DNA of 64,000 bases. It comes from Rhyzopertha dominica (Eukaryota; Arthropoda; Insecta; Coleoptera; Bostrichidae). Shown in pieces: positions 1,150 through 58,829 of the stretch. Each line of letters opens with the position of its first letter. The stretch's first letter is position 1. Location: the NCBI GenBank assembly GCA_025024175.1, contig QCXZ01000041.1:42155786-42219785 (forward strand), in the 5' to 3' direction. Both the position numbers and the translations under genes were made by a program. The notes beneath the pieces were generated by a model. That model ran no database searches. It was not told the origin of the DNA and was given only the letters and a program-made list of their open reading frames with translations.

Positions 1150-1706
1150 AAGAGGCACACTAAAGGGCTGTAGAGAATGTGCGCGCGAATATAGAGGACC
1201 CAATCCAGATTCGGACCACTTCATGGGATGAAAGAAAAATATGCTGATGAAGAAATTGCTAGGAAATGAAACAGATAAAACTAAAAATACATATGCAGAA
1301 CAGTGTAAATTATATAAAAGAATACTAAGAGGGAACAAGAAAGTTTAATCAAAAGTTGTTGAGCCAAGTAGAGAAAAGAGCAGAAATAAGAAAATTAGGA
1401 GTTTATATAATGATGTAAGGAAATAAAAGAAAGTAGTATATACGAAAACGTTTTACGATAAAAAAATAAGGAGAGTGAGTGGACAATTAGTTAACGAATT
1501 GCTCAACATATGTAAATATTATTTTAAGAATTTGTTCAAGGGATAAACAGAAACAAAAAAACTTACAGAGCAACCCCTAGGTAACGAAAATGAAGAACTC
1601 CTATCTTTGAAGATTTTGGAAGGAACATTAAAATATAATGCGAGGAGTGGCGCTATTAAATGTAGCTTATAAGATTGTCGCATTGCCTAAAATAGAGTGA
1701 ATAGTA
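1150..1706 (+). pseudogene. LINE relic, part 1 (5' of RT domain)
   Basis: Frame-shifted translation gives a lysine-rich linker of the kind that precedes the reverse transcriptase in arthropod non-LTR retrotransposons. It includes KNTYAEQCKLYKRI and later GQLVNELLNICKYYFKNLF, matching the usual pre-RT pattern ending in a YFxxLF motif. Many stops and frameshifts are present. The element is interrupted at about 1707 by a tandem hammerhead repeat and resumes at about 2405, so the LINE is older than that insertion. Confidence 0.6.
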
Positions 1707-1746
1707 AAAATGGATGCCTATGCTGTGCTGTCTACACCTCAACCAA

Positions 1747-1791
1747 CTGCAGATAGTACTATTTCGCTGTCATTACAGCTCATCAGTGCAG
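1747..1791 (-). ncRNA. Hammerhead ribozyme, type I (unit 1)
   Basis: Read on the minus strand from 1791, every conserved part is present in order. Helix I 5' arm is CTGCA, then the core CTGATGA (1786-1780). Helix II is GCTGT / ACAGC with an AATG loop (1779-1766), followed by GAAA (1765-1762). Helix III is the palindrome TAGTACTA (1761-1754), then U and C (1753-1752), then the helix I 3' arm TGCAG (1751-1747). All helix I and II pairs are Watson-Crick. Predicted cleavage falls between 1752 and 1751. The tiny helix III is typical of animal retrozyme and PLE hammerheads, which often work as dimers. Activity is inferred from the conserved core and not measured. Confidence 0.88.
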
Positions 1792-2084
1792 TTTAGGTCT
1801 AGTGTAGACAACACGGCATAGAACTGGTTTTGCAATGGTATGATGAAAGTAAGAATTTAGTATGGCAATGCCATCTGTCAGCATTACACTGACATGATGA
1901 CAAAGCCACCTAGCTGCCTTAACGGGAACTACTTCCTAAAGGAAGTGACCTGTAGCCTGACAAATTGGCATGCAACTGCATACTTCAATTTGACAGCAGG
2001 CCCCCACGGCACTTTTTGCTGACGGGCAAGAACCAACATACATAAAAATGCATGCCTATGCTGTGCTGTCTACACCTCAACCAA

Positions 2085-2129
2085 CTGCCGATAGTACTAT
2101 TTCGCTGTCATTACAGCTCATCAGTGCAG
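2085..2129 (-). ncRNA. Hammerhead ribozyme, type I (unit 2)
   Basis: This has the same structure as the unit 1 ribozyme: core CTGATGA at 2124-2118, helix II with AATG loop, GAAA, palindromic helix III. Predicted cleavage is between 2090 and 2089, exactly 338 nt from the unit 1 site. One base differs: the first base after the cleavage site is G instead of T in the RNA sense, so the helix I pair nearest the core is an A-G mismatch while the next four pairs remain. Slower cleavage than unit 1 is plausible (inference). Confidence 0.82.
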
Positions 2130-2404
2130 TTTAGGTCTAGTGTAGACAACACGGCATAGAACTGGTTTTGCTTGTATACCAAAGCAATGGTATGATGAAA
2201 GTAAGAATTTAGTATGGCAATGTCATCTGTTAGCATTACACTGACATGATGACAAAGCGACCTAGCTGCCTTAACGGGAACTACTTCCTAAAGGAAGTGA
2301 CCTCTAGCCTGACAAACTGGCATGCAACTGCATACTTCAATTTGACAGCAGGCCCCCACGGCACTTTTTTCTGACGGGCAAGAACCAACATACATTAAAA
2401 TGCA

Positions 2405-3235
2405 TGTCTATGCCCCCACGGCCGATAAAATGATACTACATGGGATAGATGACAAGATAAAAATAGATGGTAGGTAATCAGAAAGCTTTACAGTTGCAAG
2501 AGGTCTAAGACAAGGCGACCCCTTAACAATCGGCAAGACAGTACTGGTGAATATGGTACGGAAAATGGAGAGGGTAGAAGCAAACGTGGATGTGGTGTTT
2601 TAGCGCTTAAATGATACACCGCTCAGTTCCCAACAACTATTCTATTAATCCATGTACTTTTAATATTGCAAGCATTTTTGCTAGCCAGCCACAGGAACAT
2701 GAGATGGATGAACAAAGATAATATGGAAACAGAGGACATCAGAGGAAGGAAAAATATCTAAAAAACCTCTCCATGGCAGGACATTTTTGTCTAAATCGGT
2801 TATTAAAAAGCAATCTATTATGGGAAGCATTAAAATAAAGATACATACAAAAGATGTGAGACCTATAGTGTCCACACTTCGGGGGGAAATCGAACAAAAT
2901 ACGTTGGAAGTTTGGGAGAGGCAAGTGCTTCGACAAATCGTTGGGGGAAAATGCGTAAATGCACAACAAACAAACAAAAGACGCTCGAGCTGTATCAGAA
3001 TGCAGGTATAGTCTCAGTGGTAAGAGCTCAAAGGCTTAAGGGGTTAGCTCATACCCCGATAATGTATAGGGATAGAATAAATAAACTTTTACTGTTGCAA
3101 GGACTAGGAGGAAAAAGAGGAGGGAAAGACCAAGGGGACGTTGAAGGAGTGAGGTGGAAAAGGTTTTTCACAGGCTTGAGAATACGAAAATAGAAAGAAA
3201 AAACACTAGATAAAGAAAAATGGTCGACTAAGCTA
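2405..3235 (+). pseudogene. LINE relic, part 2 (RT and C-terminal tail)
   Basis: This continues the LINE interrupted at 1707. Bases 2425-2580 read IDDKIKIDGR and then FTVARGLRQGDPL, the RT block with the RQGDPL motif. Bases 2787-3193 give TLEVWERQVLRQIVGGK, then (another frame) VVRAQRLKGLAHT and LLLQGLGGKRGGK. This matches the C-terminal tail common to arthropod RTE/R1-like elements (LEVWERxxLRxIxGG, RAQRLRWLGHV, GxRGGKR). The catalytic RT block is missing or too decayed to see. Several frameshifts confirm it is dead. Confidence 0.7.
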
Positions 3236-12856: not shown

Positions 12857-13404
12857 GTGGGGGCTGCGCACAAACGCATTTGCAACTCAGAACCAGTAGT
12901 AGTGTACCGTGTGTTTTATTATTTTAAAAATAAAAGCTGTGCCTCAGATACTCTTGAAAGTGTGCAACGTAAGACATCTATTGCTACTGCAATCTCTGTC
13001 AGAACTACAGAGAGGATTGTTCGTGAAGGTGATTGCAGTGCACAGTTCATTACTCCTGGAAAGAAACAACCTAGGAAGAGTAGCCTGACTGCCGATTTGC
13101 GTCATATTGTGCACGAATTTTACAAGACCTAAGGAAATCGTGTGACAGTAGCACAATTAAACCAGAAGATACGAAATGACTTGAATTGGCATGGATCGAA
13201 CGAGACTTTGAGGGTTTTATTGCGCAACATAGGATTCAGGTGGAGGAGAACTCAAAATAATCGGTAAGTGCTATTCGAAAGGCACTCCATCAGATCACTA
13301 TAAAATATTTCTAAAGTCAGAATACACCAATTGTATATGTGGACGAAACTTACCTGCATAGTGGACACATTTCGTCGAAAAACTGGACGGATGATTCGAC
13401 AAAA
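12857..13404 (+). pseudogene. Mariner-like transposase, N-terminal part
   Basis: The region shows a helix-turn-helix-like N-terminus (TSIATAISVRTTERIVREGD) and a linker (SSLTADLRHIVHEFY), then VTVAQLNQKI. After frameshifts it reaches VDETYLHSGH with NWTDDSTKG at about 13,335-13,405, the first catalytic aspartate block of the DDE domain. In-frame stops occur at about 13,130 and 13,258. The frame resumes after the PLE at about 14,435. Confidence 0.78.
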
Positions 13405-14434
13405 GGGTTGGTTTGAAGGCTTCCGTGGTTGTTATCGATGACATGTTGTGTTCCGGGCTGGTTCCCACGTTGGTTATTAGACCTTGACGTTTCGACACTC
13501 ATGTCGGTGTCTTCCTCAAAAGTAGCTCTGAAACTGAAGTGTCCTAACCTGCTCGGGTATTTATACTCGTCCGGGTCACTGACGCGTGGGCGNTGTTACG
13601 CATGACCGGTTTCCAGATTCCAGGTAGGTCGATGCCCCGGTCTCGGTTGTAATTGTGCGGGTTCTTCTGGATTTCGATGGCTTCCTTGTACAGTCTCGGC
13701 CAGAATCTCGCTTCCCTCGACAGCATTTGTGCTTCCTCGAATTTGATTATGTGGCCAGTCTCCATTCGATATTCTGCTACAACCGACCTATCACCTTGTC
13801 GGTCTCTGGTGTCCCTCATGTGCTCCTTGATTCTCGTGCTGATGTGCCTTCCGGTTTGGCCGATGTAAACCTTCCCACAGCTGCATGGGATGCTGTACAC
13901 ACCTTGTGTTTGTAGCTCCTCAGTCGTCGAACGATATTTCGGAAAGGCGTTAGCTATCTTTCTCGGGGCGGTGAAGATGGTGTTTATATGATGTCTTCTC
14001 AGCAGCCGTCCGATCTTATCTGTACATCCATTGACGTAGGGCAAGTATGCCGCAGCGATGTGCTCCTCTGGTTCCTTCCTCCGTGGTTGCTTGTTGATAG
14101 CCAACTCAATCTGTGCCTTAGGATATCCGTTCTTCTGTAGTGCACTGCGTAGATGTTCTAATTCCTCTTCTAGATGGTTTGGTTCGCTGACTAGCTTCGC
14201 CCGCTGTATCAGCGTGTTGATGACTCCTTGTTTTTGGGCGGGGTGGTGGTGTGAATCTGCATGCAGGTAGCGATCCGTGTGGGTTGGCTTCCTATAGGCC
14301 CGATGTCCTAGCGTGCCGTCTTGTTTCCTTGTCACCATCACATCCAGGAAGGAGAGGGCGCCGTTGGTCTCCATCTCCAGCCCGGAACACAACATGTCGT
14401 TGACAAAAGGGTTTTTTGCAAATTGTATGTTCAA
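13405..14434 (-). mobile_element. Penelope-like element, 5'-truncated insertion
   Basis: This insertion on the opposite strand cuts the mariner transposase between TKG and QRLVIIHAG. AAAGG occurs at both junctions and could be a short target duplication. Its 5' end is truncated within the RT C-terminus. Its 3' end includes the hairpin plus GAAACGTC tail (13,520-13,482). It contains one long open frame, so it is younger than the host mariner, whose own frame is broken. Confidence 0.82.
13544..14434 (-). pseudogene. PLE protein: RT C-terminus and GIY-YIG endonuclease (truncated)
   Basis: About 290 codons are open without a stop, apart from one ambiguous base near the 3' end. In order they show: residues 25-43 GALSFLDVMVTRKQDG, the post-RT block; 47-58 YRKPTHTDRYLH, the diagnostic Penelope block; a helical linker; and 178-192 GVY...VYIG with GQTGRHISTRIKEH (193-205), the GIY-YIG nuclease with its conserved R201 and H205. 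The C-terminus reads GIDLPGIWKPV. The RT palm with the catalytic aspartates is missing, so reverse transcription is lost although the endonuclease looks whole. In PLEs this nuclease nicks target DNA to prime reverse transcription. Confidence 0.88.
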
Positions 14435-14930
14435 AGGTCAGAGGCTTGTAATCATACACGCAGGATGGGAAAAGGGGTTCTTACCTGTATGACTATTAAT
14501 GTTCAAGTCGGGAACAAAAAGTGGTGATTACCATTCAGAAATTAATTCTGGTAATTACGGAAAGTGGCTGTAAAACGTGTTAATTTGACAAGGAATTCGG
14601 TCATTGTTATAGATAATGCGCCGTACCATATCCAGCGCCGTCGTCGAATTTCAAGAAAGCAGATATGGTGCGATGGCTTACGGATCGTAGCATTAATTTT
14701 GATCCAAACAGTTTGAAACTAAAACTGTAGGAAATTATAAAAAATAACAAGAAGGGCTATGTCATTTACAAGTTTGACAACTTGTTACGAGGTCATGGAC
14801 ATACCATTTTACGCTTAACACCCTACCACCCGGATTTGAATCCCATCGAGTTAATTAGGGCCACAGTAAAACACAACGTTGCTGCAAGAAATATCACGTT
14901 CAAATTGAATGACGCAAGTGGAACCTCTAA
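14435..14930 (+). pseudogene. Mariner-like transposase, C-terminal part
   Basis: It resumes with RLVIIHAGWEKGFLP, then VIVIDNAPYHIQRRR at 14,600-14,645 (second catalytic D at 14,612). After frameshifts come GHTILRLTPYHPDLNPIEL and IRATVKHNVAARN (glutamate at 14,848). The nearly 80-residue spacing between D and E, with the inserted GHxxLRLxPYHPDLNPIE block, marks the long-spacer lineage of IS630/Tc1/mariner DDE transposases common in arthropods. The right TIR follows at 15,097. Confidence 0.82.
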
Positions 14931-15299
14931 TTATTAACTTACAAGATAGTAGTGACAGTGACTGTAATAGTAATTAGATAGTGCCTATGCACCGATGTTT
15001 TAATTCTCTTCATTGTATAATGTTGTTTTGCTTGTTCTCTTTTTCGTTTGCTTTCAATTTCTGGTAGTAACTTGACAACCCACGCCAAAGCGTCCCATCC
15101 CCACCGCTCGCCATCATTCATCTGTTTTACAGTATATGCAAATAATTTAGTGAGAAAACTTTATGACCTTCTGCAAACTATCACAATATAAATGAAAATA
15201 TTAAACTTTCATCAAATGAAAGTATTGTATTATACCCTGGTGGAGTCCAGATGGCCACTGTCATCTACTTTTCCACTAACAGCATACTCCAGCTTTAGT

Positions 15300-15415
15300 G
15301 CCTATTGGTTCTGTTATGCTGTCTGCACTATAACTAGACCACGCTGAGGAGCTATAATGAGAGCAAAGCAGACCTGTATGTAGTCGGTTGCGATGCAGAT
15401 AGCATACCTACAAAT
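15300..15415 (+). mobile_element. Decayed retrozyme fragment
   Basis: It is homologous to the hammerhead-containing stretch of the 1.7-kb repeat, in the opposite orientation. The outer arms tatgctgtctgca and tgcagatagcata pair. Between them lie actagacc, then CTGAGGA where the core CTGATGA is expected, a GCTATAATGAGAGC helix II remnant and AAAG instead of GAAA. Both core changes should abolish cleavage. Confidence 0.6.
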
Positions 15416-16496: not shown

Positions 16497-16645
16497 CGAA
16501 ACAGCTGTCCACAGATTGTAAAATTGTCACATTCCAATTCTCGCATACACATAAGGGAAGCCACATCTGTACTCTGTTGTCTGCGTTTGGATTACAGCTG
16601 TGCTGATGAGGCTTTATAAGCTGAAACAGCTGTCCACAGATTGTT
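16497..16645 (+). mobile_element. Second hammerhead-bearing repeat (123-bp unit)
   Basis: The 22-base stretch from gaaacagctg through ccacagattgt occurs directly repeated at 16,500 and 16,623, bounding a 123-bp unit. The right copy is the 3' half of a near-canonical hammerhead; the left copy lacks a CTGATGA half. This fits a small ribozyme-bounded unit cut from a tandem array. A further stretch (gtcgcttgcgtaaaaac at about 16,470) is inverted at about 16,645-16,665. Confidence 0.55.
16598..16639 (+). ncRNA. Hammerhead ribozyme, type I (intronic, sense)
   Basis: Helix I 5' arm is CTGTG (16,598-602) and the core CTGATGA is at 16,603-609. Helix II is GGCTT / AAGCT with loop TAT (16,610-622); its core-proximal pair is G-U instead of the preferred G-C. 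GAAA is at 16,623-626. Helix III is the minimal palindrome CAGCTG (627-632), then U and C (633-634), and the helix I 3' arm is CACAG (635-639), a perfect five-pair match. Predicted cleavage is after 16,634. It lies in the sense orientation of the 27-kb Trim9 intron, so the pre-mRNA would contain it. Confidence 0.85.
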
Positions 16646-34027: not shown

Positions 34028-34069
34028 ACTGGCGTTTCGCCTACTACTGTGCTGAGCATCTTCAGAGCC
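34028..34069 (-). mobile_element. PLE 3' tail signature
   Basis: The minus strand shows CTGAAGAT, then GC-T and AGGC flanking a loop, then GAAACGCC, close to the other PLE tails but with CGCC for CGTC. No PLE coding sequence is recognised beside it. Confidence 0.4.
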
Positions 34070-34650: not shown

Positions 34651-37845
<3,195 letters not shown>

Positions 37846-37890
37846 TTAAAATGATGAGCTATAATGATAGTAAAATAGATCTATCATCAG
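37846..37890 (+). ncRNA. Degenerate hammerhead with covarying stems
   Basis: The core reads ATGATGA (37,851) where CTGATGA is expected, and AAAA where GAAA is expected, so cleavage is probably lost. Helix II is GCTAT / ATAGT with the same AATG loop, against GCTGT / ACAGC at 1.7 kb. Helix III is TAGATCTA against TAGTACTA, again a palindrome. The sequence differences preserve pairing in both helices. Confidence 0.65.
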
Positions 37891-38118
37891 TTGGTTTCGG
37901 TGCATACAGCATAGCATAGACATGTTTGTATTTTAATGTGTCGGTTATTGCCCATCAGCAAAAAGTGCCGTGGGGGCCTGTTGTCAAGTTGATGTATGCA
38001 GGTATATGCCAACTTGTCAGACTATAGGTCACTTCCTTTAGGAAGTAGTTCCCATTATGGCTTCTCGGTGGCTCTGTCATCGGATCGGTGTAATCCTGAC
38101 AGATGGCATTGCCATCTA
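37846..38118 (+). mobile_element. Retrozyme-like copy, single unit
   Basis: It is collinear with the minus strand of the 1.7-2.4 kb units: hammerhead remnant, then gcatacagcatagcatag, GCAAAAAGTGCCGTGGGGGC, TCACTTCCTTTAGGAAGTAG and tgacagatggcattgccat. Identity is moderate with indels, so it is an old copy. It starts close to the ribozyme and ends next to a MITE terminus at 38,126. It is in the sense orientation of Trim9. Confidence 0.75.
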
Positions 38119-38125
38119 ATTTTCT

Positions 38126-39339: not shown

Positions 39340-41652
39340 GTAAGTCTTGTAGTATGGTATAATTATAAAAAATTTCAAAATTTTGACATGTCAGATAAGT
39401 TTGGCTGCTGTTTTGCATTTTTGTAATACCTGCAAAGGAGTGAGAGGACATAGTATAATATTTTATAGTCAGTGTGTGTTTCTTATAATGTAAAGATATA
39501 AAATATTCATTGTTTTAAGTTTGTTCTCAAACACGTCTTTCAGGTTTCAGTAAACTTTATCTTCATGTATTAACTGTTCAAATTAAGGTATGTGGTGGGA
39601 CTAATGATCCTAGACAAAACTAATCCAGATTTTGAAACTGTGTACATTGAAAGAATATTTATAAAGATATTTTACAGAATGACTAAAAGGTCATGCTGGA
39701 AACCCAAAGTGCCACACTTACTTAATTACTATTACATTTTTTAAATTCTTCTTGAATCTTAAGGAAATGCTAGTTTATTAAACATTCTTTATCCCTAAAA
39801 TGGCCTGTGAATTACATTTTTAATAAGATTTATTACATTTATAATGCATTGTTTGTAACTGTGTGAAATCTTTCAAATTTCAAAAATATTTTTCGTATTG
39901 ATCATGTTTTTTTACCCACCAAATTTGCATTATTGTCATATAAGATATGTCATGACAAACTATAACAGGTTTGAAATGTTAGAATTACTACCCTACATCT
40001 CATTTATTGTCGTTTATTTTCATAAATAAATATTGACATTATATCCTTTTATTGCCAAAAATAAGCATTAGGGGTGTAACATCTTAAAAGTTACATATTT
40101 GTTTATTTTTTCATAAAAAAAGTCAAGACTTGTAAAGTCTGGCGATCTTACAGAGCACTTTACAAGATGTCTTTGACTATACCATTTGTTTACGAAATTT
40201 GGCACTATGGCTAGTAACATTATACCGCCACTACATATCCTTAAATGCAGCTAACCGAATATATTAAGACAAGCTGTAGATTTGTCATATAAAACCTAAA
40301 TAGATTTTTCCTACTAAGCATTCATTGAAGGAGAATGAAGCATTCCAATGACATATCCGTTCACCAGAAAAGATAATTTTAGAAAAAACACAAATTCAGG
40401 GCTAATCACATGGATATGACAAAATATTTCCTGGAATTGTCCTAGCACAAAAATCATATAGCTCAATACTCCTTATATAAAAGACATTATTAATGTTTTG
40501 CGAACTACCTGATAAAGTAACATTTCTTTATAAAACGAACGAGATATTGTGATGAAGACATACTGTATAATATATTAAATAGAATTATCAGAAAAGTGCA
40601 GATTTCTGCAGAATGATTGGTAATAGATTTGCTGTTAAACAAATACCTATCAAAGAAAATGACATTTAATTTTTGATCTAACTGTATAAAAAACTAGTGT
40701 TTCTTTAAGAAATTGTAGTTTAGAAGATTTTATGAGTATTACAAGTGATGTATTTATTTCATTTTACTTCCAATGAATCTGTTTAAAATAAAAGTTGAAA
40801 CGATAGACCATTTCTTTAACATACTACGAGGCCAGAAACTGCAGTCTTTTAAATATTTTAGTTTCTATTGTCCAAAAATTGTGTATTTTAAAAATACAGC
40901 AAAAGATTCGAAAATATAACTCTATATGATGTTGTATACCTCTCCAAATGAAATAAGGTTTTATTGCACTTGTAAAATTATGACCACCCAATAATTGCTC
41001 GTTTACTTACAATGAACCCTTGGCTGTAAGTAATCCCTTGTTTGACATACACCGACAGATGCTCGAACAAGCAGATGGGAGCTCTTGCTGAAATTTGTAA
41101 CCCCCAATAACTGTAGAAGTTTTTAACTTCTTAAACAATTGCAGAGGAATACAACCTTATTTTGGTTGGAGTACTATATATAGAATAATTGATTCCGTTA
41201 AATCCTGAAGTAGCACCATCTTCTAAAATACTTCTTTTACAATAAGCAGCAAATAAATTTTTAATACTTTTCTGTAAAGCAGTTTTCATCTCTTTTCAAT
41301 GGTTTAAGGGCTAACCAATTCATTGATTTGGCCTATCGGGTATCATCACCAAGGTATTTCAAGTATTGCAGTTTCGAAAACGAAGATCGCTATGATGTTT
41401 TTATTTTATAATTGTATTCTCTTGTTTTTGAAGTCATGAATTATTAAAAATACAAGTATTTACGATTTTGATTTCGTCATTTATATCATTATTATCGTTC
41501 TATTATTACTTGTGTTTAAATCTTTCTTGATCTGTGACCTGAACAAAAAATTACTTATCCAAGAAAGGGATCCATGAATATTTGCAGGGTACTGAACTTT
41601 TAGGTTATAAAAAATTTTGGTTACATAGTTCACAACACAATTTTTTTCCTAG
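39340..41652 (+). other. Trim9 last intron; possible old mariner fragment
   Basis: A 2.3-kb A+T-rich intron. On the minus strand, about 40,400-40,080, IIFSGERICHWNAS and YNVTSHSAKFRKQ faintly recall mariner catalytic blocks (IIFSDExxFHxN, DGATxHxA), but decay is too great for a firm call. Nothing else is seen. The acceptor is tttttttcctag ending at 41,652. Confidence 0.45.
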
Positions 41653-41945
41653 GTAAGGATGATAAAGGCTGGGCAATGTACATAGATAGGCAACGATCCT
41701 GGTTCCAACACGCTGGTGCACACGAACAACGTGTTGAGGGTGGCATAATGGCAGGCTCAACCATAGGTGTGCTCCTCGATCTCAACAGGCACACTTTGGC
41801 GTACTACGTCAATGAAGAACCCCAAGGCAGCGTAGCATTTAGGGATCTCTATGGAGTGTTCTATCCTGCCGTCAGCATCAATCGAGGGGTCAGTGTAACA
41901 CTGCATACAGCGTTGGATCCACCTTCAGACATTGAAGAAACCTGA
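41653..41945 (+). CDS. Trim9: Trim9, final exon: SPRY domain end and stop
   Basis: Reads KDDKGWAMYIDRQRSWFQHA, then RVEGGIMAGSTIGVLLDLNR, TLAYYVNEEPQGSVAF and YPAVSINRGVSVTLHTALDP, and ends PSDIEET with TGA at 41,943-41,945. These are the last SPRY strands (DGWAMYxDxxRSWF, GxTIGVLLDLNRxxL, FxPAVSxNRxVxVTLHT) in normal TRIM9 order. The four exons add 797 nt in the window, and with the one base carried in from upstream this is exactly 266 codons including stop. The short hydrophilic C-terminus after LHT is normal for the family. Confidence 0.95.
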
Positions 41946-45250: not shown

Positions 45251-45252
45251 AC

Positions 45253-48200
45253 GTTCTAGCTCATTTCTGAATGCATTTTGGAATCAGCAGCTCAAAATAC
45301 ATCGGTATGCCGATTTTGAGCCAAAAATAATTTTCACCGAAAACAGCAAATGAGCAAAGGCTAACCCCTTTGTTGTTTTTTCACCTCGAAATTTCATGGT
45401 CTCCGATTACGCTAATTTTATGTTCATTTACTAATGTGGACCTGCTGCATTTCGGAGTGGTGTCAGTTTTTCTCTAGCTGCAACGGTTCGTCTGAAAAGT
45501 GACCTAGAGTAGAACTTTCAATTTACGAAAAATTAATTTCCCGACGTCCTAGCTCATTTCTGAATGCATTTTTGGAATCAGCAGCTCAAAATACATCAGT
45601 ATGCCGATTTTGAGCCAAAAATAATTTTCACCGAAAACGGCAAAAGAGCAAAGGCTAACCCCTTTGTTGTTTTTTCACCTCGAAATTTCATGGTCTCCGA
45701 TTACGCTAATTTTATGTTCATTTACTAATGTGGACCTTCTGCATTTCGGAGTGGTGTCAGTTTTTCTCTAGCTGCAACGGTTCGTCTGAAAAGTGACCTA
45801 GAGTAGAACTTTCAATTTACGAAAAATTAATTTCCCGACGTCCTAGCTCATTTCTGAATGCATTTTTGGAATCAGCAGCTCAAAATACATCAGTATGCCG
45901 ATTTTGAGCCAAAAATAATTTTCACCGAAAACGGCAAAAGAGCAAAGGCTAACCCCTTTGTTGTTTTTTCACCTCGAAATTTCATGGTCTCCGATTACGC
46001 TAATTTTATGTTCATTTACTAATGTGGACCTGCTGCATTTCGGAGTGGTGTCAGTTTTTCTCTAGCTGCAACGGTTCGTCTGAAAAGTGACCTAGAGTAG
46101 AACTTTCAATTTACGAAAAATTAATTTCCCGACGTCCTAGCTCATTTCTGAATGCATTTTTGGAATCAGCAGCTCAAAATACATCAGTATGCCGATTTTG
46201 AGCCAAAAATAATTTTCACCGAAAACGGCAAAAGAGCAAAGGCTAACCCCTTTGTTGTTTTTTCACCTCGAAATTTCATGGTCTCCGATTACGCTAATTT
46301 TATGTTCATTTACTAATGTGGACCTGCTGCATTTCGGAGTGGTGTCAGTTTTTCTCTAGCTGCAACGGTTCGTCTGAAAAGTGACCTAGAGTAGAACTTT
46401 CAATTTACGAAAAATTAATTTCCCGACGTCCTAGCTCATTTCTGAATGCATTTTTGGAATCAGCAGCTCAAAATACATCAGTATGCCGATTTTGAGCCAA
46501 AAATAATTTTCACCGAAAACGGCAAAAGAGCAAAGGCTAACCCCTTTGTTGTTTTTTCACCTCGAAATTTCATGGTCTCCGATTACGCTAATTTTATGTT
46601 CATTTACTAATGTGGACCTGCTGCATTTCGGAGTGGTGTCAGTTTTTCTCTAGCTGCAACGGTTCGTCTGAAAAGTGACCTAGAGTAGAACTTTCAATTT
46701 ACGAAAAATTAATTTCCCGACGTCCTAGCTCATTTCTGAATGCATTTTTGGAATCAGCAGCTCAAAATACATCAGTATGCCGATTTTGAGCCAAAAATAA
46801 TTTTCACCGAAAACGGCAAAAGAGCAAAGGCTAACCCGTTTGTTGTTTTTTAACCTCGAAATATCATGGTCTCCGATTACGCTAATTTTATGTTCATTTA
46901 CTAATGTGGACCTGCTGCATTTCGGAGTGGTGTCAGTTTTTCTCTAGCTGCAACGGTTCGTCTGAAAAGTGACCTAGAGTAGAACTTTCAATTTACGAAA
47001 AATTAATTTCCCGACGTCCTAGCTCATTTCTGAATGCATTTTTGGGATCAGCAGCTCAAAATACATCAGTATGCCGATTTTAAGCCAAAAATAATTTTCA
47101 CCGAAAACGGCAAAAGAGCAAAGGCTAACACCCCTTTGTTGTTTTTTCACTTCGAAATTTCATGGTCTCCGATTACGCTAATTTTATGTTCATTTACTAA
47201 TGTGGACCTGCTGCATTTCGGAGTGGTGTCAGTTTTTCTCTAGCTGCAACGGTTCGTCTGAAAAGTGACCTAGAGTAGAACTTTCAATTTACGAAAAATT
47301 AATTTCCCGACGTCCTAGCTCATTTCTGAATGCATTTTTGGAATCAGCAGCTCAAAATACATCAGTATGCCGATTTTGAGCCAAAAATAATTTTCACCGA
47401 AAACGGCAAAAGAGCAAAGGCTAACCCCTTTGTTGTTTTTTCACCTCGAAATTTCATGGTCTCCGATTACGCTAATTTTATGTTCATTTACTAATGTGGA
47501 CCTTCTGCATTTCGGAGTGGTGTCAGTTTTTCTCTAGCTGCAACGGTTCGTCTGAAAAGTGACCTAGAGTAGAACTTTCAATTTACGAAAAATTAATTTC
47601 CCGACGTCCTAGCTCATTTCTGAATGCATTTTTGGAATCAGCAGCTCAAAATACATCAGTATGCCGATTTTGAGCCAAAAATAATTTTCACCGAAAACGG
47701 CAAAAGAGCAAAGGCTAACCCCTTTGTTGTTTTTTCACCTCGAAATTTCATGGTCTCCGATTACGCTAATTTTATGTTCATTTACTAATGTGGACCTTCT
47801 GCATTTCGGAGTGGTGTCAGTTTTTCTCTAGCTGCAACGGTTCGTCTGAAAAGTGACCTAGAGTAGAACTTTCAATTTACGAAAAATTAATTTCCCGACG
47901 TCCTAGCTCATTTCTGAATGCATTTTTGGAATCAGCAGCTCAAAATACATCAGTATGCCGATTTTGAGTCAAAAATAATTTTCACCGAAAACGGCAAAAG
48001 AGCAAAGGCTAACCCCTTTGTTGTTTTTTCACCTCGAAATTTCATGGTCTCCGATTACGCTAATTTTATGTTCATTTACTAATGTGGACCTGCTGCATTT
48101 CGGAGTGGTGTCAGTTTTTCTCTAGCTGCAACGGTTCGTCTGAAAAGTGACCTAGAGTAGAACTTTCAATTTACGAAAAATTAATTTCCCGACGTCCTAG

Positions 48201-51200
48201 CTCATTTCTGAATGCATTTTTGGAATCAGCAGCTCAAAATACATCAGTATGCCGATTTTGAGCCAAAAATAATTTTCACCGAAAACGGCAAAAGAGCAAA
48301 GGCTAACCCCTTTGTTGTTTTTTAACCTCGAAATATCATGGTCTCCGATTACGCTAATTTTATGTTCATTTACTAATGTGGACCTGCTGCATTTCGGAGT
48401 GGTGTCAGTTTTTCTCTAGCTGCAACGGTTCGTCTGAAAAGTGACCTAGAGTAGAACTTTCAATTTACGAAAAATTAATTTCCCGACGTCCTAGCTCATT
48501 TCTGAATGCATTTTTGGAATCAGCAGCTCAAAATACATCAGTATGCCGATTTTGAGCCAAAAATAATTTTCACCGAAAACGGCAAAAGAGCAAAGGCTAA
48601 CCCCTTTGTTGTTTTTTCACCTCGAAATTTCATGGTCTCCGATTACGCTAATTTTATGTTCATTTACTAATGTGGACCTGCTGCATTTCGGAGTGGTGTC
48701 AGTTTTTCTCTAGCTGCAACGGTTCGTCTGAAAAGTGACCTAGAGTAGAACTTTCAATTTACGAAAAATTAATTTCCCGACGTCCTAGCTCATTTCTGAA
48801 TGCATTTTTGGAATCAGCAGCTCAAAATACATCAGTATGCCGATTTTGAGCCAAAAATAATTTTCACCGAAAACGGCAAAAGAGCAAAGGCTAACCCCTT
48901 TGTTGTTTTTTAACCTCGAAATATCATGGTCTCCGATTACGCTAATTTTATGTTCATTTACTAATGTGGACCTTCTGCATTTCGGAGTGGTGTCAGTTTT
49001 TCTCTAGCTGCAACGGATCGTCTGAAAAGTGACCTAGAGTAGAACTTTCAATTTACGAAAAATTAATTTCCCGACGTCCTAGCTCATTTCTGAATGCATT
49101 TTTGGAATCAGCAGCTCAAAATACATCAGTATGCCGATTTTGAGCCAAAAATAATTTTCACCGAAAACGGCAAAAGAGCAAAGGCTAACCCCTTTGTTGT
49201 TTTTTCACCTCGAAATTTCATGGTCTCCGATTACGCTAATTTTATGTTCATTTACTAATGTGGACCTGCTGCATTTCGGAGTGGTGTCAGTTTTTCTCTA
49301 GCTGCAACGGTTCGTCTGAAAAGTGACCTAGAGTAGAACTTTCAATTTACGAAAAATTAATTTCCCGACGTCCTAGCTCATTTCTGAATGCATTTTTGGA
49401 ATCAGCAGCTCAAAATACATCAGTATGCCGATTTTAAGCCAAAAATAATTTTCACCGAAAACGGCAAAAGAGCAAAGGCTAACCCCTTTGTTGTTTTTTC
49501 ACCTCGAAATTTCATGGTCTCCGATTACGCTAATTTTATGTTCATTTACTAATGTGGACCTGCTGCATTTCGGAGTGGTGTCAGTTTTTCTCTAGCTGCA
49601 ACGGTTCGTCTGAAAAGTGACCTAGAGTAGAACTTTCAATTTACGAAAAATTAATTTCTCGACGTCCTAGCTCATTTCTGAATGCATTTTTGGAATCAGC
49701 AGCTCAAAATACATCAGTATGCCGATTTTGAGCCAAAAATAATTTTCACCGAAAACGGCAAAGAGCAAAGGCTAACCCCTTTGTTGTTTTTTTCACCTCG
49801 AAATTTCATGGTCTCCGATTACGCTAATTTTATGTTCATTTACTAATGTGGACCTGCTGCATTTCGGAGTGGTGTCAGTTTTTCTCTAGCTGCAACGGTT
49901 CGTCTGAAAAGTGACCTAGAGTAGAACTTTCAATTTACGAAAAATTAATTTCCCGACGTCCTAGCTCATTTCTGAATGCATTTTTGGAATCAGCAGCTCA
50001 AAATACATCAGTATGCCGATTTTGAGCCAAAAATAATTTTCACCGAAAACGGCAAAAGAGCAAAGGCTAACCCCTTTGTTGTTTTTTCACCTCGAAATTT
50101 CATGGTCTCCGATTACGCTAATTTTTATGTTCATTTACTAATGTGGACCTGCTGCATTTCGGAGTGGTGTCAGTTTTTCTCTAGCTGCAACGGTTCGTCT
50201 GAAAAGTGACCTAGAGTAGAACTTTCAATTTACGAAAAATTAATTTCCCGACGTCCTAGCTCATTTCTGAATGCATTTTTGGAATCAGCAGCTCAAAATA
50301 CATCAGTATGCCGATTTTGAGCCAAAAATAATTTTCACCGAAAACGGCAAAAGAGCAAAGGCTAACCCCTTTGTTGTTTTTTCACCTCGAAATTTCATGG
50401 TCTCCGATTACGCTAATTTTATGTTCATTTACTAATGTGGACCTGCTGCATTTCGGAGTGGTGTCAGTTTTTCTCTAGCTGCAACGGTTCGTCTGAAAAG
50501 TGACCTAGAGTAGAACTTTCAATTTACGAAAAATTAATTTCCCGACGTCCTAGCTCATTTCTGAATGCATTTTTGGAATCAGCAGCTCAAAATACATCAG
50601 TATGCCGATTTTGAGCCAAAAATAATTTTCACCGAAAACGGCAAAAGAGCAAAGGCTAACCCCTTTGTTGTTTTTTCACCTCGAAATTTCATGGTCTCCG
50701 ATTACGCTAATTTATGTTCATTTACTAATGTGGACCTGCTGCATTTCGGAGTGGTGTCAGTTTTTCTCTAGCTGCAACGGTTCGTCTGAAAAGTGACCTA
50801 GAGTAGAACTTTCAATTTACGAAAAATTAATTTCCCGACGTCCTAGCTCATTTCTGAATGCATTTTTGGAAATCAGCAGCTCAAAATACATCAGTATGCC
50901 GATTTTGAGCCAAAAATAATTTTCACCGAAAACGGCAAAAGAGCAAAGGCTAACCCCTTTGTTGTTTTTTCACCTCGAAATTTCATGGTCTCCGATTACG
51001 CTAATTTTATGTTCATTTACTAATGTGGACCTGCTGCATTTCGGAGTGGTGTCAGTTTTTCTCTAGCTGCAACGGTTCGTCTGAAAAGTGACCTAGAGTA
51101 GAACTTTCAATTTACGAAAAATTAATTTCCCGACGTCCTAGCTCATTTCTGAATGCATTTTTGGAATCAGCAGCTCAAAATACATCAGTATGCCGATTTT

Positions 51201-54200
51201 GAGCCAAAAATAATTTTCACCGAAAACGGCAAAAGAGCAAAGGCTAACCCCTTTGTTGTTTTTTCACCTCGAAATTTCATGGTCTCCGATTACGCTAATT
51301 TTATGTTCATTTACTAATGTGGACCTGCTGCATTTCGGAAGTGGTGTCAGTTTTTCTCTAGCTGCAACGGTTCGTCTGAAAAAGTGACCTAGAGTAGAAC
51401 TTTCAATTTACGAAAAATTAATTTCCCGACGTCCTAGCTCATTTCTGAATGCATTTTTTGGAATCAGCAGCTCAAAATACATCAGTATGCCGATTTTGAG
51501 CCAAAAATAATTTTCACCGAAAACGGCAAAAGAGCCAAAGGCTAACCCCTTTGGTTGTTTTTCACCTCGAAATTTCATGGTCTCCGATTACGCTAATTTT
51601 ATGTTCATTTACTAATGTGGACCTGCTGCATTTCGGAGTGGTGTCAGTTTTTCTCTAGCTGCAACGGTTCGTCTGAAAAGTGACCTAGAGTAGAACTTTC
51701 AATTTACGAAAAATTAATTTCCCGACGTCCTAGCTCATTTCTGAATGCATTTTTGGAATCAGCAGCTCAAAATACATCAGTATGCCGATTTTGAGCCAAA
51801 AATAATTTTCACCGAAAACGGCAAAAGAGCAAAGGCTAACCCCTTTGTGTTTTTTCACCTCGAAATTTCATGGTCTCCGATTACGCTAATTTTATGTTCA
51901 TTTACTAATGTGGACCTGCTGCATTTCGGAGTGGTGTCAGTTTTTCTCTAGCTGCAACGGTTCGTCTGAAAAGTGACCTAGAGTAGAACTTTCAATTTAC
52001 GAAAAATTAATTTCCCGACGTCCTAGCTCATTTCTGAATGCATTTTTGGAATCAGCAGCTCAAAATACATCAGTATGCCGATTTTGAGCCAAAAATAATT
52101 TTCACCGAAAACGGCAAAAGAGCAAAGGCTAACCCCTTTGTTGTTTTTTCACCTCGAAATTTCATGGTCTCCGATTACGCTAATTTTATGTTCATTTACT
52201 AATGTGGACCTGCTGCATTTCGGAGTGGTGTCAGTTTTCTCTAGCTGCAACGGTTCGTCTGAAAAGTGACCTAGAGTAGAACTTTCAATTTACGAAAAAT
52301 TAATTTCCCGACGTCCTAGCTCATTTCTGAATGCATTTTTGGAATCAGCAGCTCAAAATACATCAGTATGCCGATTTTGAGCCAAAAATAATTTTCACCG
52401 AAAACGGCAAAAGAGCAAAGGCTAACCCCTTTGTTGTTTTTTCACCTCGAAATTTCATGGTCTCCGATTACGCTAATTTTATGTTCATTTACTAATGTGG
52501 ACCTGCTGCATTTCGGAGTGGTGTCAGTTTTTCTCTAGCTGCAACGGTTCGTCTGAAAAGTGACCTAGAGTAGAACTTTCAATTTACGAAAAATTAATTT
52601 CCCGACGTCCTAGCTCATTTCTGAATGCATTTTTGGAATCAGCAGCTCAAAATACATCAGTATGCCGATTTTGAGCCAAAAATAATTTTCACCGAAAACG
52701 GCAAAAGAGCAAAGGCTACAACCCCTTTGTTGTTTTTTCACCTCGAAATTTCATGGTCTCCGATTACGCTAATTTTATGTTCATTTACTAATGTGGACCT
52801 GCCTGCATTTCGGAGTGGTGTCAGTTTTTCTCTAGCTGCAACGGTTCGTTCTGAAAAGTGACCTAGAGTAGAACTTTCAATTTACGAAAAATTAATTTCC
52901 CGACGTCCTAGCTCATTTCTGAATGCATTTTTTGGAATCAGCAGCTCAAAATACATCAGTATGCCGATTTTTGAGCCAAAAATAATTTTCACCGAAAACG
53001 GCAAAAGAGCAAAGGCTAACCCCTTTGTTGTTTTTTCACCTCGAAATTCATGGTCTCCGATTACGCTAATTTTATGTTCATTTACTAATGTGGACCTGCT
53101 GCATTTCGGAGTGGTGTCAGTTTTTCTCTAGCTGCAACGGTTCGTCTTGAAAAGTGACCTAGAGTAGAACTTTCAATTTACGAAAAATTAATTTCCCGGA
53201 CGTCCTAGCTCATTTCTGAATGCATTTTTGGAATCAGCAGCTCAAAATACATCAGTATGCCGATTTTGAGCCAAAAATAATTTTCACCGAAAACGGCAAA
53301 AAGAGCAAAGGCTAACCCCTTTGTTGTTTTTTTCACCTCGAAATTTCATGGTCTCCGATTACGCTAATTTTATGTTCATTTACTAATGTGGACCTGCTGC
53401 ATTTCGGAGTGGTGTCAGTTTTTCTCTAGCTGCAACGGTTCGTCTGAAAAGTGACCTAGAGTAGAACTTTCAATTTACGAAAAATTAATTTCCCGACGTC
53501 CTAGCTCATTTCTGAATGCATTTTTGGAATCAGCAGCTCAAATTACATCAGTATGCCGATTTTGAGCCAAAAATAATTTTCACCGAAAACGGCAAAAGAG
53601 CAAAGGCTAACCCCTTTGTTGTTTTTCACCTCGAAATTTCATGGTCTCCGATTACGCTAATTTTATGTTCATTTACTAATGTGGACCTGCTGCATTTCGG
53701 AGTGGTGTCAGTTTTTCTCTAGCTGCAACGGTTCGTCTGAAAAGTGACCTAGAGTAGAACTTTCAATTTACGAAAAATTAATTTCCCGACGTCCTAGCTC
53801 ATTTCTGAATGCATTTTTGGAATCAGCAGCTCAAAATACATCAGTATGCGATTTTGAGCCAAAAATAATTTTCACCGAAAACGGATGCAAAAGAGCAAGG
53901 CTAACCCCTTTTGTTGTTTTTTTAACCTCGAAATTTCATGGTCTCACGATTACGTGCTAATTTTATGTTCATCGTTACTATGTGGACGCTTCCTGCTTTC
54001 GGAGTGGGTGTCCAGTTTTCTCTAGCTGCAACGGTTCGTATGAAAAGTGACCTAGAGTACAACTTTCAATTTACGAAAATTAATTTCCCCGACGTCCTAA
54101 GCTCATTTCTGAATGCATTTTTTGGAATCAGGCAGCTCAAAATACATTCAGTATCGCCGATTGTTGAGCCAAAATAATTTTCACCCGAAAACGGCAAAAG

Positions 54201-57200
54201 AGCCAAGGCTAACCCCCTTTGTTGTTTTTTCACTCTCTGAAATTCATGGTCTCCGATTACGGCGTCCTAGATTTTATGCTTCATCTTACTAATGTTGGAT
54301 CCTGCTTGCATTCGGAGTGGTGTCAGTTTTTCTCTAGCTGCAACGGTTCGTCTGAAAAGTGACCTAGAGTAGAACTTTCAATTTACGAAAANNNNNNNNN
54401 NNNNNNNNNNNNNNNNNNNNNNNNNNNNNNNNNNNNNNNNNNNNNNNNNNNNNNNNNNNNNNNNNNNNNNNNNNNNNNNNNNNNNNNNNNNAGCTCAAAA
54501 TACATCAGTAATGCCGATTTTGAGCCAAAAATAATTTTAACCGAAAAACGGCAAAAGAGCAAAGGCTAACCCCTTTGTTGTTTTTTCACCTCGAAATTTC
54601 ATGGTCTCCGATTACGCTAATTTTATGTTCATTTACTAATGTGGACCTGCTGCATTTCGGAGTGGTGTCAGTTTTTCTCTAGCTGCAACGGTTCGTCTGA
54701 AAAGTGACCTAGAGTAGAACTTTCAATTTACGAAAAATTAATTTCCCGACGTCCTAGCTCATTTCTGAATGCATTTTTGGAATCAGCAGCTCAAAATACA
54801 TCAGTATGCCGATTTTGAGCCAAAAATAATTTTCACCGAAAACGGCAAAAGAGCAAAGGCTAACCCCTTTGTTGTTTTTTCACCTCGAAATTTCATGGTC
54901 TCCGATTACGCTAATTTATGTTCATTTACTAATGTGGACCTGCTGCATTTCGGAGTGGTGTCAGTTTTTCTCTAGCTGCAACGGTTCGTCTGAAAAGTGA
55001 CCTAGAGTAGAACTTTCAATTTACGAAAAATTAATTTCCCGACGTCCTAGCTCATTTCTGAATGCATTTTTGGAATCAGCAGCTCAAAATACATCAGTAT
55101 GCCGATTTTGAGCCAAAAATAATTTTCACCGAAAACGGCAAAAGAGCAAAGGCTAACCCCTTTGTTGTTTTTTCACCTCGAAATTTCATGGTCTCCGATT
55201 ACGCTAATTTTATGTTCATTTACTAATGTGGACCTGCTGCATTTCGGAGTGGTGTCAGTTTTTCTCTAGCTGCAACGGTTCGTCTGAAAAGTGACCTAGA
55301 GTAGAACTTTCAATTTACGAAAAATTAATTTCCCGACGTCCTAGCTCATTTCTGAATGCATTTTTGGAATCAGCAGCTCAAAATACATCAGTATGCCGAT
55401 TTGAGCCAAAAATAATTTTCACCGAAAACGGCAAAAGAGCAAAGGCTAACCCCTTTGTTGTTTTTTCACCTCGAAATTTCATGGTCTCCGATTACGCTAA
55501 TTTTATGTTCATTTACTAATGTGGACCTTCTGCATTTCGGAGTGGTGTCAGTTTTTCTCTAGCTGCAACGGTTCGTCTGAAAAGTGACCTAGAGTAGAAC
55601 TTTCAATTTACGAAAAATTAATTTCCCGACGTCCTAGCTCATTTCTGAATGCATTTTTGGAATCAGCAGCTCAAAATACATCAGTATGCCGATTTTGAGC
55701 CAAAAATAATTTTCATCGAAAACGGCAAAAGAGCAAAGGCTAACCCCTTTGTTGTTTTTTCACCTCGAAATTTCATGGTCTCCGATTACGCTAATTTTAT
55801 GTTCATTTACTAATGTGGACCTGCTGCATTTCATAGTGGTGTCAGTTTTTCTCTAGCTGCAACGGTTCGTCTGAAAAGTGACCTAGAGTAGAACTTTCAA
55901 TTTACGAAAAATTAATTTCCCGACGTCCTAGCTCATTTCTGAATGCATTTTTGGAATCAGCAGCTCAAAATACATCAGTATGCCGATTTTGAGCCAAAAT
56001 AATTTTCACCGAAAACGGCAAAAGAGCAAAGGCTAACCCCTTTGTTGTTTTTCACCTCGAAATTTCATGGTCTCCGATTACGCTAATTTTATGTTCATTT
56101 ACTAATGTGGACCTTCTGCATTTCGGAGTGGTGTCAGTTTTTCTCTAGCTGCAACGGTTCGTCTGAAAAGTGACCTAGAGTAGAACTTTCAATTTACGAA
56201 AAATTAATTTCCCGACGTCCTAGCTCATTTCTGAATGCATTTTTGGAATCAGCAGCTCAAAATACATCAGTATGCCGATTTTGAGCCAAAAATAATTTTC
56301 ACCGAAAACGGCAAAAGAGCAAAGGCTAACCCCTTTGTTGTTTTTTCACCTCGAAATTTCATGGTCTCCGATTACGCTAATTTTATGTTCATTTACTAAT
56401 GTGGACCTTCTGCATTTCGGAGTGGTGTCAGTTTTTCTCTAGCTGCAACGGTTCGTCTGAAAAGTGACCTAGAGTAGAACTTTCAATTTACGAAAAATTA
56501 ATTTCCCGACGTCCTAGCTCATTTCTGAATGCATTTTTGGAATCAGCAGCTCAAAATACATCAGTATGCCGATTTTGAGCCAAAAATAATTTTCACCGAA
56601 AACGGCAAAAGAGCAAAGGCTAACCCCTTTGTTGTTTTTTCACCTCGAAATTTCATGGTCTCCGATTACGCTAATTTTATGTTCATTTACTAATGTGGAC
56701 CTTCTGCATTTCGGAGTGGTGTCAGTTTTTCTCTAGCTGCAACGGTTCGTCTGAAAAGTGACCTAGAGTAGAACTTTCAATTTACGAAAAATTAATATCC
56801 CGACGTCCTAGCTCATTTCTGAATGCATTTTTGGAATCAGCAGCTCAAAATACATCAGTATGCCGATTTTGAGCCAAAAATAATTTTCATCGAAAACGGC
56901 AAAAGAGCAAAGGCTAACCCCTTTGTTGTTTTTTCACCTCGAAATTTCATGGTCTCCGATTACGCTAATTTTATGTTCATTTACTAATGTGGACCTGCTG
57001 CATTTCATAGTGGTGTCAGTTTTTCTCTAGCTGCAACGGTTCGTCTGAAAAGTGACCTAGAGTAGAACTTTCAATTTACGAAAAATTAATTTCCCGACGT
57101 CCTAGCTCATTTCTGAATGCATTTTTGGAATCAGCAGCTCAAAATACATCAGTATGCCGATTTTGAGCCAAAAATAATTTTCACCGAAAACGGCAAGAGA

Positions 57201-58666
57201 GCAAAGGCTAACCCCTTTGTTGTTTTTTCACCTCGAAATTTCATGGTCTCCGATTACGCTAATTTTATGTTCATTTACTAATGTGGACCTGCTGCATTTC
57301 GGAGTGGTGTCAGTTTTTCTCTAGCTGCAACGGTTCGTCTGAAAAGTGACCTAGAGTAGAACTTTCAATTTACGAAAAATTAATTTCCCGACGTCCTAGC
57401 TCATTTCTGAATGCATTTTTGGAATCAGCAGCTCAAATACATCAGTATGCCGATTTTGAGCCAAAAATAATTTTCACCGAAAACGGCAAAAGAGCAAAGG
57501 CTAACCCCTTTGTTGTTTTTTCACCTCGAAATTTCATGGTCTCCGATTACGCTAATTTTATGTTCATTTACTAATGTGGACCTGCTGCATTTCGGAGTGG
57601 TGTCAGTTTTTCTCTAGCTGCAACGGTTCGTCTGAAAAGTGACCTAGAGTAGAACTTTCAATTTACGAAAAATTAATTTCCCGACGTCCTAGCTCATTTC
57701 TGAATGCATTTTTGGAATCAGCAGCTCAAAATACTTCAGTATGCCGATTTTAAGCCAAAAATAATTTTCACCGAAAACGTCAAAAGAGCAAAGGCTAACC
57801 CCTTTGTTGTTTTTTCACCTCGAAATTTCATGGTCTCCGATTACGCTAATTTTATGTTCATTTACTAATGTGGACCTGCTGCATTTCGGAGTGGTGTCAG
57901 TTTTTCTCTAGCTGCAACGGTTCGTCTGAAAAGTGACCTAGAGTAGAACTTTCAATTTACGAAAAATTAATTTCCCGACGTCCTAGCTCATTTCTGAGTG
58001 CATTTTTGGAATCAGCAGCTCAAAATACATCAGTATGCCGATTTTGAGCCAAAAATAATTTTCACCGAAAACGGCAAAAGAGCAAAGGCTAACCCCTTTG
58101 TTGTTTTTTCACCTCGAAATTTCATGGTCTCCGATTACGCTAATTTTATGTTCATTTACTAATGTGGACCTGCTGCATTTCGGAGTGGTGTCAGTTTTTC
58201 TCTAGCTGCAACGGTTCGTCTGAAAAGTGACCTAGAGTAGAACTTTCAATTTACGAAAAATTAATTTCCCGACGTCCTAGCTCATTTCTGAATGCATTTT
58301 TGGAATCAGCAGCTCAAAATACATCAGTATGCCGATTTTGAGCCAAAAATAATTTTCACCGAAAACGGCAAGAGAGCAAAGGCTAACCCCTTTGTTGTTT
58401 TTTCACCTCNAAATTTCATGGTCTCCGATTACGCTAATTTTATGTTCATTTACTAATGTGAACCTGCTGCATTTCGGAGTGGTGTGTTTTTCTCTAGCTG
58501 CAACGGTTCGTCTGAAAAGTGACCTAGAGTAGAACTTTCAATTTACGAAAAATTAATTTCCCGACGACCTAGCTCATTTCTGAATGCATTTTTGGAATCA
58601 GCAGCTCAAAATACATCAGTATGCCGATTTTGAGCCAATAATAATATTCACCGAAAACGGCAAAAC
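45253..58666. repeat. Satellite DNA array, 294-bp monomer
   Basis: Head-to-tail array of about 45 copies. Adjacent monomer starts (for example ctcatttctgaatgc at 45,553 and 45,847) are 294 bp apart and the spacing holds across 13.4 kb. Copies differ at only a few positions; recurring variants are ggaccTtctg / ggaccGctg-type, aaatAtcatgg, ttttAagcc, ttcaTcgaaa with ttcATagtgg, and ggcaaGagagc. The first monomer is slightly more diverged; the last breaks off at cggcaaaacg. Short open frames beginning MHFWNQQLKIH recur but stop at 60-80 codons and are by-products of the repeat. No hammerhead or CENP-B-like box was found. Confidence 0.97.
54392..54491. other. Assembly gap (100 N) inside the satellite
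   Basis: Exactly 100 Ns. By repeat phase, sequence before (ending acgaaaa) and after (starting agctcaaaat) should be separated by 51 nt plus a whole number of 294-bp monomers, so 100 is a placeholder. The true array is therefore of unknown length. Confidence 0.95.
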
Positions 58667-58829
58667 GTTTATCAAAACGTTAATTCCAAGAGCCTTTGTA
58701 TGCCTGAATCTTTTGCCTTATTTCCAGTTTCAAATACTGAAGTTGGGAATGCAATAAAAATCTTAGACCTAAAAACTCAACAGGATATGTTAATATTTCC
58801 AACATGTAATTAAATGAATTTCTCTTTTC

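Follow-up and report, generated by a model that had tools for sequence, protein, structure and literature searches.

The window analysed here is a stretch of 64,000 nucleotides from Rhyzopertha dominica (assembly GCA_025024175.1, contig QCXZ01000041.1, positions 42,155,786 to 42,219,785 of the forward strand). Near its beginning, from about 2413 to near 1705, lies a retrozyme copy made of two tandem units, A and B, each with a hammerhead ribozyme; two older copies of the same family and a fragment of a Penelope-like element (PLE) lie further along (Table 1). The new finding concerns the form in which copies of this family are inserted in the genome, which points to circular RNA and PLE-type integration.

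Table 1. Retrozyme and PLE features of the window
Feature	Position	Strand	Remarks
Retrozyme unit A	1712..2049	-	338 nt; private 14-nt deletion
Retrozyme unit B	2050..2401	-	352 nt
Partial unit closing the insertion at its RNA-5' end	2402..2413	-	Remnant of the helix I 3' arm, by eye
Insertion end site E1	1705..1711	-	RNA AUUUUUA after the last unit base; by eye and from the family end site
Hammerhead of unit A with extended helix I	1718..1821	-	Cut 1752/1751; Rfam HH9 match 1732-1802
Hammerhead of unit B with extended helix I	2056..2159	-	Cut 2090/2089; Rfam HH9 match 2070-2140
Older copy C	37851..38122	+	Unit 279-353, then ~1-197; 3' side near E2; hammerhead core mutated
Older copy D	15248..15406	+	Unit 174-341; hammerhead core mutated
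PLE copy, 5'-truncated	13398..14413	-	Short inverted 3'-end arm at ~14377-14406
Minimal hammerhead-like motif of the PLE	13486..13519	-	UUGAGGA...GAAACGUC, followed by the cut

Units, ribozymes and family size

A first-pass annotation, made from the letters of the window alone, had described two type I hammerheads on the minus strand, and this description held. Both units carry CUGAUGA, a helix II of 5 bp, GAAA, a short helix III and AUC followed by the cut; the conserved core letters were found in both, and helix III indeed has a palindromic tip, GUAC. The same annotation gave 338 nt as the distance between the cut sites and as the repeat period. The former is correct, the latter is not: the unit bodies lie 352 nt apart, because the 14-nt deletion of unit A falls between the two hammerheads. 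Among 101 units spanning the deletion site, 95 were ungapped and a single 14-nt gap was seen, fitting unit A, and 28 of the 32 tandem spacings in the fetched loci were 351 or 352 nt. The family monomer is 351-352 nt, and 338 nt is local to the window pair. Helix I is indeed extended, with 19 further pairs past the inner loop, but in unit B it opens with an A.G mismatch, because a G replaces the U that follows the cut in 130 of 134 units. Release of a clean 338-nt RNA from this locus, which the annotation had expected, is not assured.

Units A and B are identical at 329 of 338 aligned bases, apart from the one 14-nt indel. Their GC contents are 0.444 and 0.439, with 0.356 for the window as a whole. 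The longest stop-free run, in a trimer of the unit, was 59 codons, so that the unit holds no long open reading frame (ORF). The reference unit used in our scripts has 353 letters, since one junction base of unit B was counted twice. Tandem Repeats Finder did not list the unit pair.

At gathering scores, Rfam gave no match anywhere in the window. With a relaxed threshold, RF02275 (Hammerhead_HH9, gathering score 52) matched both hammerheads below its gathering score, scoring 28.0 bits in unit A (window-wide E = 0.0081) and 23.0 bits in unit B (E = 0.33). Allowing at most 2 mismatches, a core pattern of 25 nt matched 6,233 places (3,154 forward, 3,079 reverse) of the scanned genome (479 Mb in 138 contigs), whereas the reversed pattern matched none. 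Together with the anatomy of the two units, these counts support the initial reading as a retrozyme. Two exact-pattern scans of viral contigs found zero copies of the family.

Covariation was seen at some pairs. In the aligned units, pair 260-331 of helix I was AU in 89, GC in 27, AC in 2, GU in 2 and of other kinds in 2. For pair 289-296 of helix II the counts were GC 121, AU 11, GU 4 and AC 1; many of the sampled units had been picked by the core pattern, which leaves this pair unconstrained. The octamer of helix III read UAGUACUA in 75 units and UAGAUCUA in 50, both palindromes, the remainder being rarer forms. Most of the remaining hammerhead pairs were near-invariant and thus uninformative in either direction. 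Given the thousands of genome matches and this covariation, the hammerhead pair is not a chance occurrence. The palindrome of helix III would fit ribozymes pairing as dimers, by analogy with amphibian retrozyme ribozymes, which are reported to do so (PMC7229834). An apparently better conservation of the hammerhead core (9/683 mismatches, against 693/16872 for the rest of the unit) was rejected as an artefact of taking unit B as reference.

The first-pass annotation had also suggested a genome-wide search with the type I model RF00163. This search did return 25 type I matches, 22 of them above the cut-off, with 74 of 57,767 first-look candidates scored; the window pair was not among the 25 matches, and the search says little about the retrozyme family. 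In the eight RF00163 loci inspected (L001-L008), no second copy of the motif was found, and several had palindromic helix III tips (CCCGGG, CTAG). A further hammerhead-like motif lies in the window at 16595-16632 on the plus strand (RF00008, 28.2 bits, gathering score 48.5, E = 0.077). Its helix III palindrome is CAGCUG, and a 22-nt piece at its cut site is repeated 125 bp upstream.

Insertion architecture and template

Unit segments were mapped in 100 loci, giving 96 non-redundant insertions. Seventy loci (L009-L038 and L069-L108) had been taken by exact core match on one contig (C1), up to ~11.9 Mb, and 30 (L039-L068) because they matched the ribozyme-free body of the unit best. Before counting, we excluded BLAST segments that scored under 30 bits, clusters shorter than 90 bp or at most 60 bp from a locus edge, and duplicate places.

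The commonest form, seen in 62 of the 96 insertions, consists of two inverted arms placed head-to-head, with RNA 3' ends pointing outward at both ends. These ends are fixed and differ from each other. The one termed E1 follows directly on the junction between units, ...GCAUUUUA(A); the other, E2, lies at about unit position 204 (range 197-217). They were paired as E1/E2 in 57 of the 62 insertions, as E2/E2 in 1 and as E1/E1 in 0, while 3 paired E1 with another end and 1 had two other ends. The E1/E2 form made up 19 of 24 insertions at loci chosen by the unit body and 38 of the remaining 72. In the other 34 insertions a 5' end was combined with E1 (24), E2 (5) or another end (5). The window copy, with an E1 arm only, belongs to this minority as one of the 24, and no border repeat was found for it. 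Further tandem copies, whose absence the first-pass annotation had named as one of three points against its reading, do occur: 12 of the 96 insertions carry at least two hammerheads in one orientation, the other 84 being without such an array. Two things escaped the annotation: the frequent inverted form and, within the window, the older copies C and D.

Border repeats were measured as the longest exact match near both borders, which may take in one or two shared A's. A repeat of at least 8 bp was present in 47 of the 57 E1/E2 insertions, as opposed to 28 of 1118 shuffled pairs and, in a second run, 18 of 1130. Matches were mostly 8-15 bp long, most commonly 13-14 bp with the shared A's included. 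The repeats were AT-rich (81% AT, with 66% in the flanks). Copies with E2 as their only fixed end had such repeats as well (3 of 5, versus 0 of 83 in the control).

Comparing the opposite arms within an insertion at 13 variable sites gave agreement in 421 of 441 cases. For segments of the same arm the figure was 306 of 315, and for different insertions 53,463 of 94,740 (56%). Agreement was complete in loci L064 (115/115) and L051 (81/81). The arms of one insertion share a common template. This template was not a linear self-cut monomer, since all 57 E1 arms pass through the ribozyme cut site, as do 25 of the 57 E2 arms. In 15 of the 57 insertions an arm was longer than one unit. Arms that span the cut and laps of more than one unit are most simply explained by an RNA circle. 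The offsets of the inner junctions were consistent with a uniform spread (Kolmogorov-Smirnov p = 0.21), as expected of two independent cDNAs.

Folded as a circle, the 353-letter reference reached a predicted -120.8 kcal/mol, compared with a mean of -86.3 (s.d. 6.3) for 60 mononucleotide shuffles. In the predicted fold, E1 falls in a run of unpaired U's next to the hairpin of the hammerhead and E2 in an unpaired stretch of 23 nt, so that both sites would be mostly unpaired in the circle.

Penelope-like elements and a probable route of insertion

The PLE of the window is a fragment with an ORF at 13544-14437 on the minus strand. By eye, it is flanked by a 12-bp repeat, AACCCTTTTGTC, at 14413-14402 and 13409-13398. 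Pfam gave no credible family for this ORF, and a search of solved-structure sequences a single match with E = 0.86. Among the best 120 of its 171 relatives, PF26215 was found in most, PF00078 in many and PF01541 in few, and a protein of Rhyzopertha dominica itself was 92% identical over 39% of the query. A genome search returned 133 matches from the candidates scored, the longest open frame being 786 aa. Of the neighbouring matches no more than 5 kb apart, 11 pairs had their 3' ends outward, 1 had them inward and 1 lay on the same strand. In three PLE insertions outside the window (L001, L006, L109), one arm ends at PLE position 939-940 and the other at 968-970, with border matches of 13 bp; both arms of L109 carry a minimal hammerhead, CUGAGGA...GAAACGUC. 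These four PLE copies, the one in the window included, share the layout and the repeat size of the retrozyme. The first PLE end lies ~47 nt past the hammerhead cut, as does E1 of the retrozyme (~47 nt); with so few sites, this match may be a chance coincidence. A motif scan of the window also gave two minimal hammerhead-like cores resembling the PLE kind, CTGATGA...GGGCGAAACGTC at 6614 (plus strand) and CTGAAGA...GGCGAAACG at 34065 (minus strand).

We consider it likely that a circle of retrozyme RNA is reverse-transcribed from both ends of the target by machinery of the Penelope type. By analogy with published animal retrozymes, transcripts of tandem copies would be cut by their hammerheads into monomers of ~350 nt, which would be ligated into circles, and the circle would then serve as template for insertion. 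A GIY-YIG/reverse transcriptase protein of the PLE kind would cut AT-rich DNA with nicks ~12-13 bp apart on the two strands. Each target 3' end would prime at its own site, one at E1 and one at E2, both of them mostly unpaired on the shared RNA circle. Both cDNAs would run round the circle, sometimes for more than one lap, before being joined. The outcome would be a head-to-head insertion with outward RNA 3' ends, E1/E2 ends and a flanking repeat of 12-13 bp. Cleavage, the circles, the order of the steps and the identity of the enzyme are what we infer here. For an anole PLE, the purified protein cut and extended both strands, preferred AT-rich DNA and started at two internal sites of the RNA, one on either side of the 'tail' (PMC11167929). 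PLEs had moreover been proposed as a strong candidate helper of retrozymes, from shared type I hammerheads, tandem occurrence and coexistence (PMC7229834). The beetle insertions join three strands of the literature, namely this anole biochemistry, the ends of rotifer PLEs and the helper proposal.

A more specific version, to which we give about even chances, would have a PLE-type complex hold one circle with E1 and E2 as non-interchangeable start sites, one per target strand, and copy it from the two ends simultaneously, in a rolling-circle manner. If so, the long-standing puzzle of the optional PLE 'tail' would be solved, the tail being the stretch between two start sites of which one is used at each end, and retrozymes would be a minimal substrate of PLE integration.

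Several observations weigh against copying of a circle by PLE-type machinery. Anole PLE starts alike on both strands (PMC11167929), unlike the strict E1/E2 pairing seen here, and by eye the E1 and E2 sites and the PLE ends have no evident common sequence. The PLE sample amounts to four insertions, with border matches given without a shuffled control, and 132 of 12,084 first-look candidates were scored in the PLE search. Three loci fit a single template poorly (L027 with 5/9, L048 with 7/10 and L086 with 16/19 sites agreeing). In young copies, with a column-majority reference and the 13 variable sites excluded, mismatches were not rarer in the hammerhead core than in the rest of the unit (9/683 versus 194/16235, p = 0.72). 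Finally, E1-only copies showed no excess of border repeats (1 of 24, control 15 of 470). Such copies, which differ in this from the two-armed and some of the E2-only ones, may be damaged or end-joined.

Matching arms and laps would equally result if the template had been a linear multimer, transcribed from a homogeneous tandem array. Arrays do exist in the minority of insertions counted above, and the units inside an insertion mostly agree at variable sites. Hammerheads should however cut such multimers, most sampled insertions have no array, and circles are the form in which animal retrozymes of this type accumulate (PMC7229834), which leaves a linear template rather unlikely in our view. We hold it to be very improbable that the inverted arms arose by foldback, with a cDNA or antisense RNA snapping back and copying itself, as was put forward for the inverted repeats of rotifer PLEs (PMC3846280). 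An arm made by snapping back should end at the site where copying first started, yet the second arm ends at the other fixed site in 57 of the 58 insertions whose two ends are each E1 or E2. The two arms seem to reach the junction at unrelated coordinates, although 6 of 57 junctions were symmetric within 8 nt where ~3 were expected from an even spread.

The enzyme, too, might be a different one. Twin priming occurs in L1, and a long interspersed element (LINE) such as L2 or CR1 might mobilise the retrozyme by target-primed reverse transcription with frequent twin priming of this kind. Starts of the L1 type lie at the RNA 3' end, with an A-rich tail, whereas both starts are internal here and every E1 arm runs through the cut; the two ends are moreover fixed and unlike, and the same layout recurs in PLE copies of this genome. 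A LINE could account for border repeats of 12-13 bp, and L2 and CR1 stand beside Penelope among the common retrotransposons of R. dominica (PMC8956072). A LINE reverse transcriptase query gave 151 matches; inspection by eye of the rows listed showed one inward pair but none facing outward at close range. This is a weak control, as the reverse transcriptase is not at the 3' end of a LINE. Taken together, we regard mobilisation by a LINE as improbable. Hardly any credence is left for an ordinary tandem satellite, immobile and with decayed ribozymes. It is true that the window pair repeats in tandem and that satellites are where animal hammerheads were first described (PMC7229834), but the thousands of matches are dispersed, and for the family this explanation is already contradicted by the fixed ends and border repeats of the sampled copies. 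Copying of an RNA circle by PLE-type machinery stays our preferred reading.

The window has further features. A possible exon (8438, by eye only), a weak fn3 match (35733-36065, E = 0.0011, below cut-off) and a SPRY domain (41604-41945, E = 1.9e-12), all on the plus strand, could possibly be exons of one gene, perhaps TRIM9; the retrozyme RNA strand is antisense to this possible SPRY/fn3 gene. A broken LINE reverse transcriptase (RVT_1, E = 2.9e-11) lies at 58818-59704 on the plus strand. Positions 45251-58665 hold a 13.4-kb array of a 294-bp satellite in 45 copies with 93% matches. For the R. dominica genome, 480 Mb in males with 35% GC, main satellite monomers of 123-294 bp have been reported, with Penelope among the main retrotransposons (PMC8956072).

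Comparison with known systems

In the open-licence literature searched, as far as its text was accessible, we found neither a description of a head-to-head E1/E2 insertion form for retrozymes nor a retrozyme family of the R. dominica genome in print, and the word 'hammerhead' does not appear in the main text of the R. dominica genome paper (PMC8956072). The route by which animal retrozymes return to DNA is a question that the insertions address with genomic evidence that can be tested. Their scars need an RNA that is joined across the ribozyme cut and copied from both target ends, and they have the same form as the Penelope copies of this genome. The family further supplies natural insertions in the thousands and, for an in vitro PLE assay, a small noncoding substrate with two defined start sites.

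The sequence supports the assignment of the element as a non-autonomous, non-LTR (long terminal repeat) retrozyme. It resembles those of coral, mussel and axolotl in its type I hammerhead, unit size, low GC, lack of coding capacity and tandem copies (PMC7229834). The unit falls within their ~170-400 nt and below their 45-50% GC, and border repeats exceed 4 bp in most two-armed copies, as they do, where present, in animal non-LTR retrozymes. The palindromic helix III tip is also found in the axolotl retrozyme, and PLEs are present in the same genome, as in other animal hosts of retrozymes (PMC7229834). Unlike the tandem dimers to multimers described there, the commonest form here is head-to-head, with two different fixed ends and a repeat of 12-13 bp. 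LTR retrozymes of plants are likewise non-autonomous, bear hammerheads and are thought to move via RNA circles; they have, however, type III hammerheads, LTRs, a tRNA primer site, a polypurine tract and border repeats of 4 bp (PMC7229834, PMC7761336), in contrast to the type I layout and the border matches of mostly 8-15 bp in the beetle.

Closest in their form of insertion are PLEs. In rotifer PLEs the inverted ends stand head-to-head, one of them may carry a tail, and border repeats, where present, measure 8-10 bp (PMC3846280). As in Penelope of the rotifer Adineta vaga (PMC3846280) and Poseidon of the anole (PMC11167929), the retrozyme shows head-to-head inverted ends, an extra 'tail' at one end and border repeats, together with an internal start of reverse transcription, AT-rich targets and a hammerhead near the start sites. 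PLEs code for a reverse transcriptase and a GIY-YIG endonuclease, whereas the retrozyme is noncoding and the ORF at 13544-14437 belongs to the separate PLE. The end sequences differ, and so does the spacing of the two ends, which is ~30 nt in the PLE and 196 nt (or 156 nt the other way) on the retrozyme circle. All in all, the retrozyme is not a PLE, but it inserts like one.
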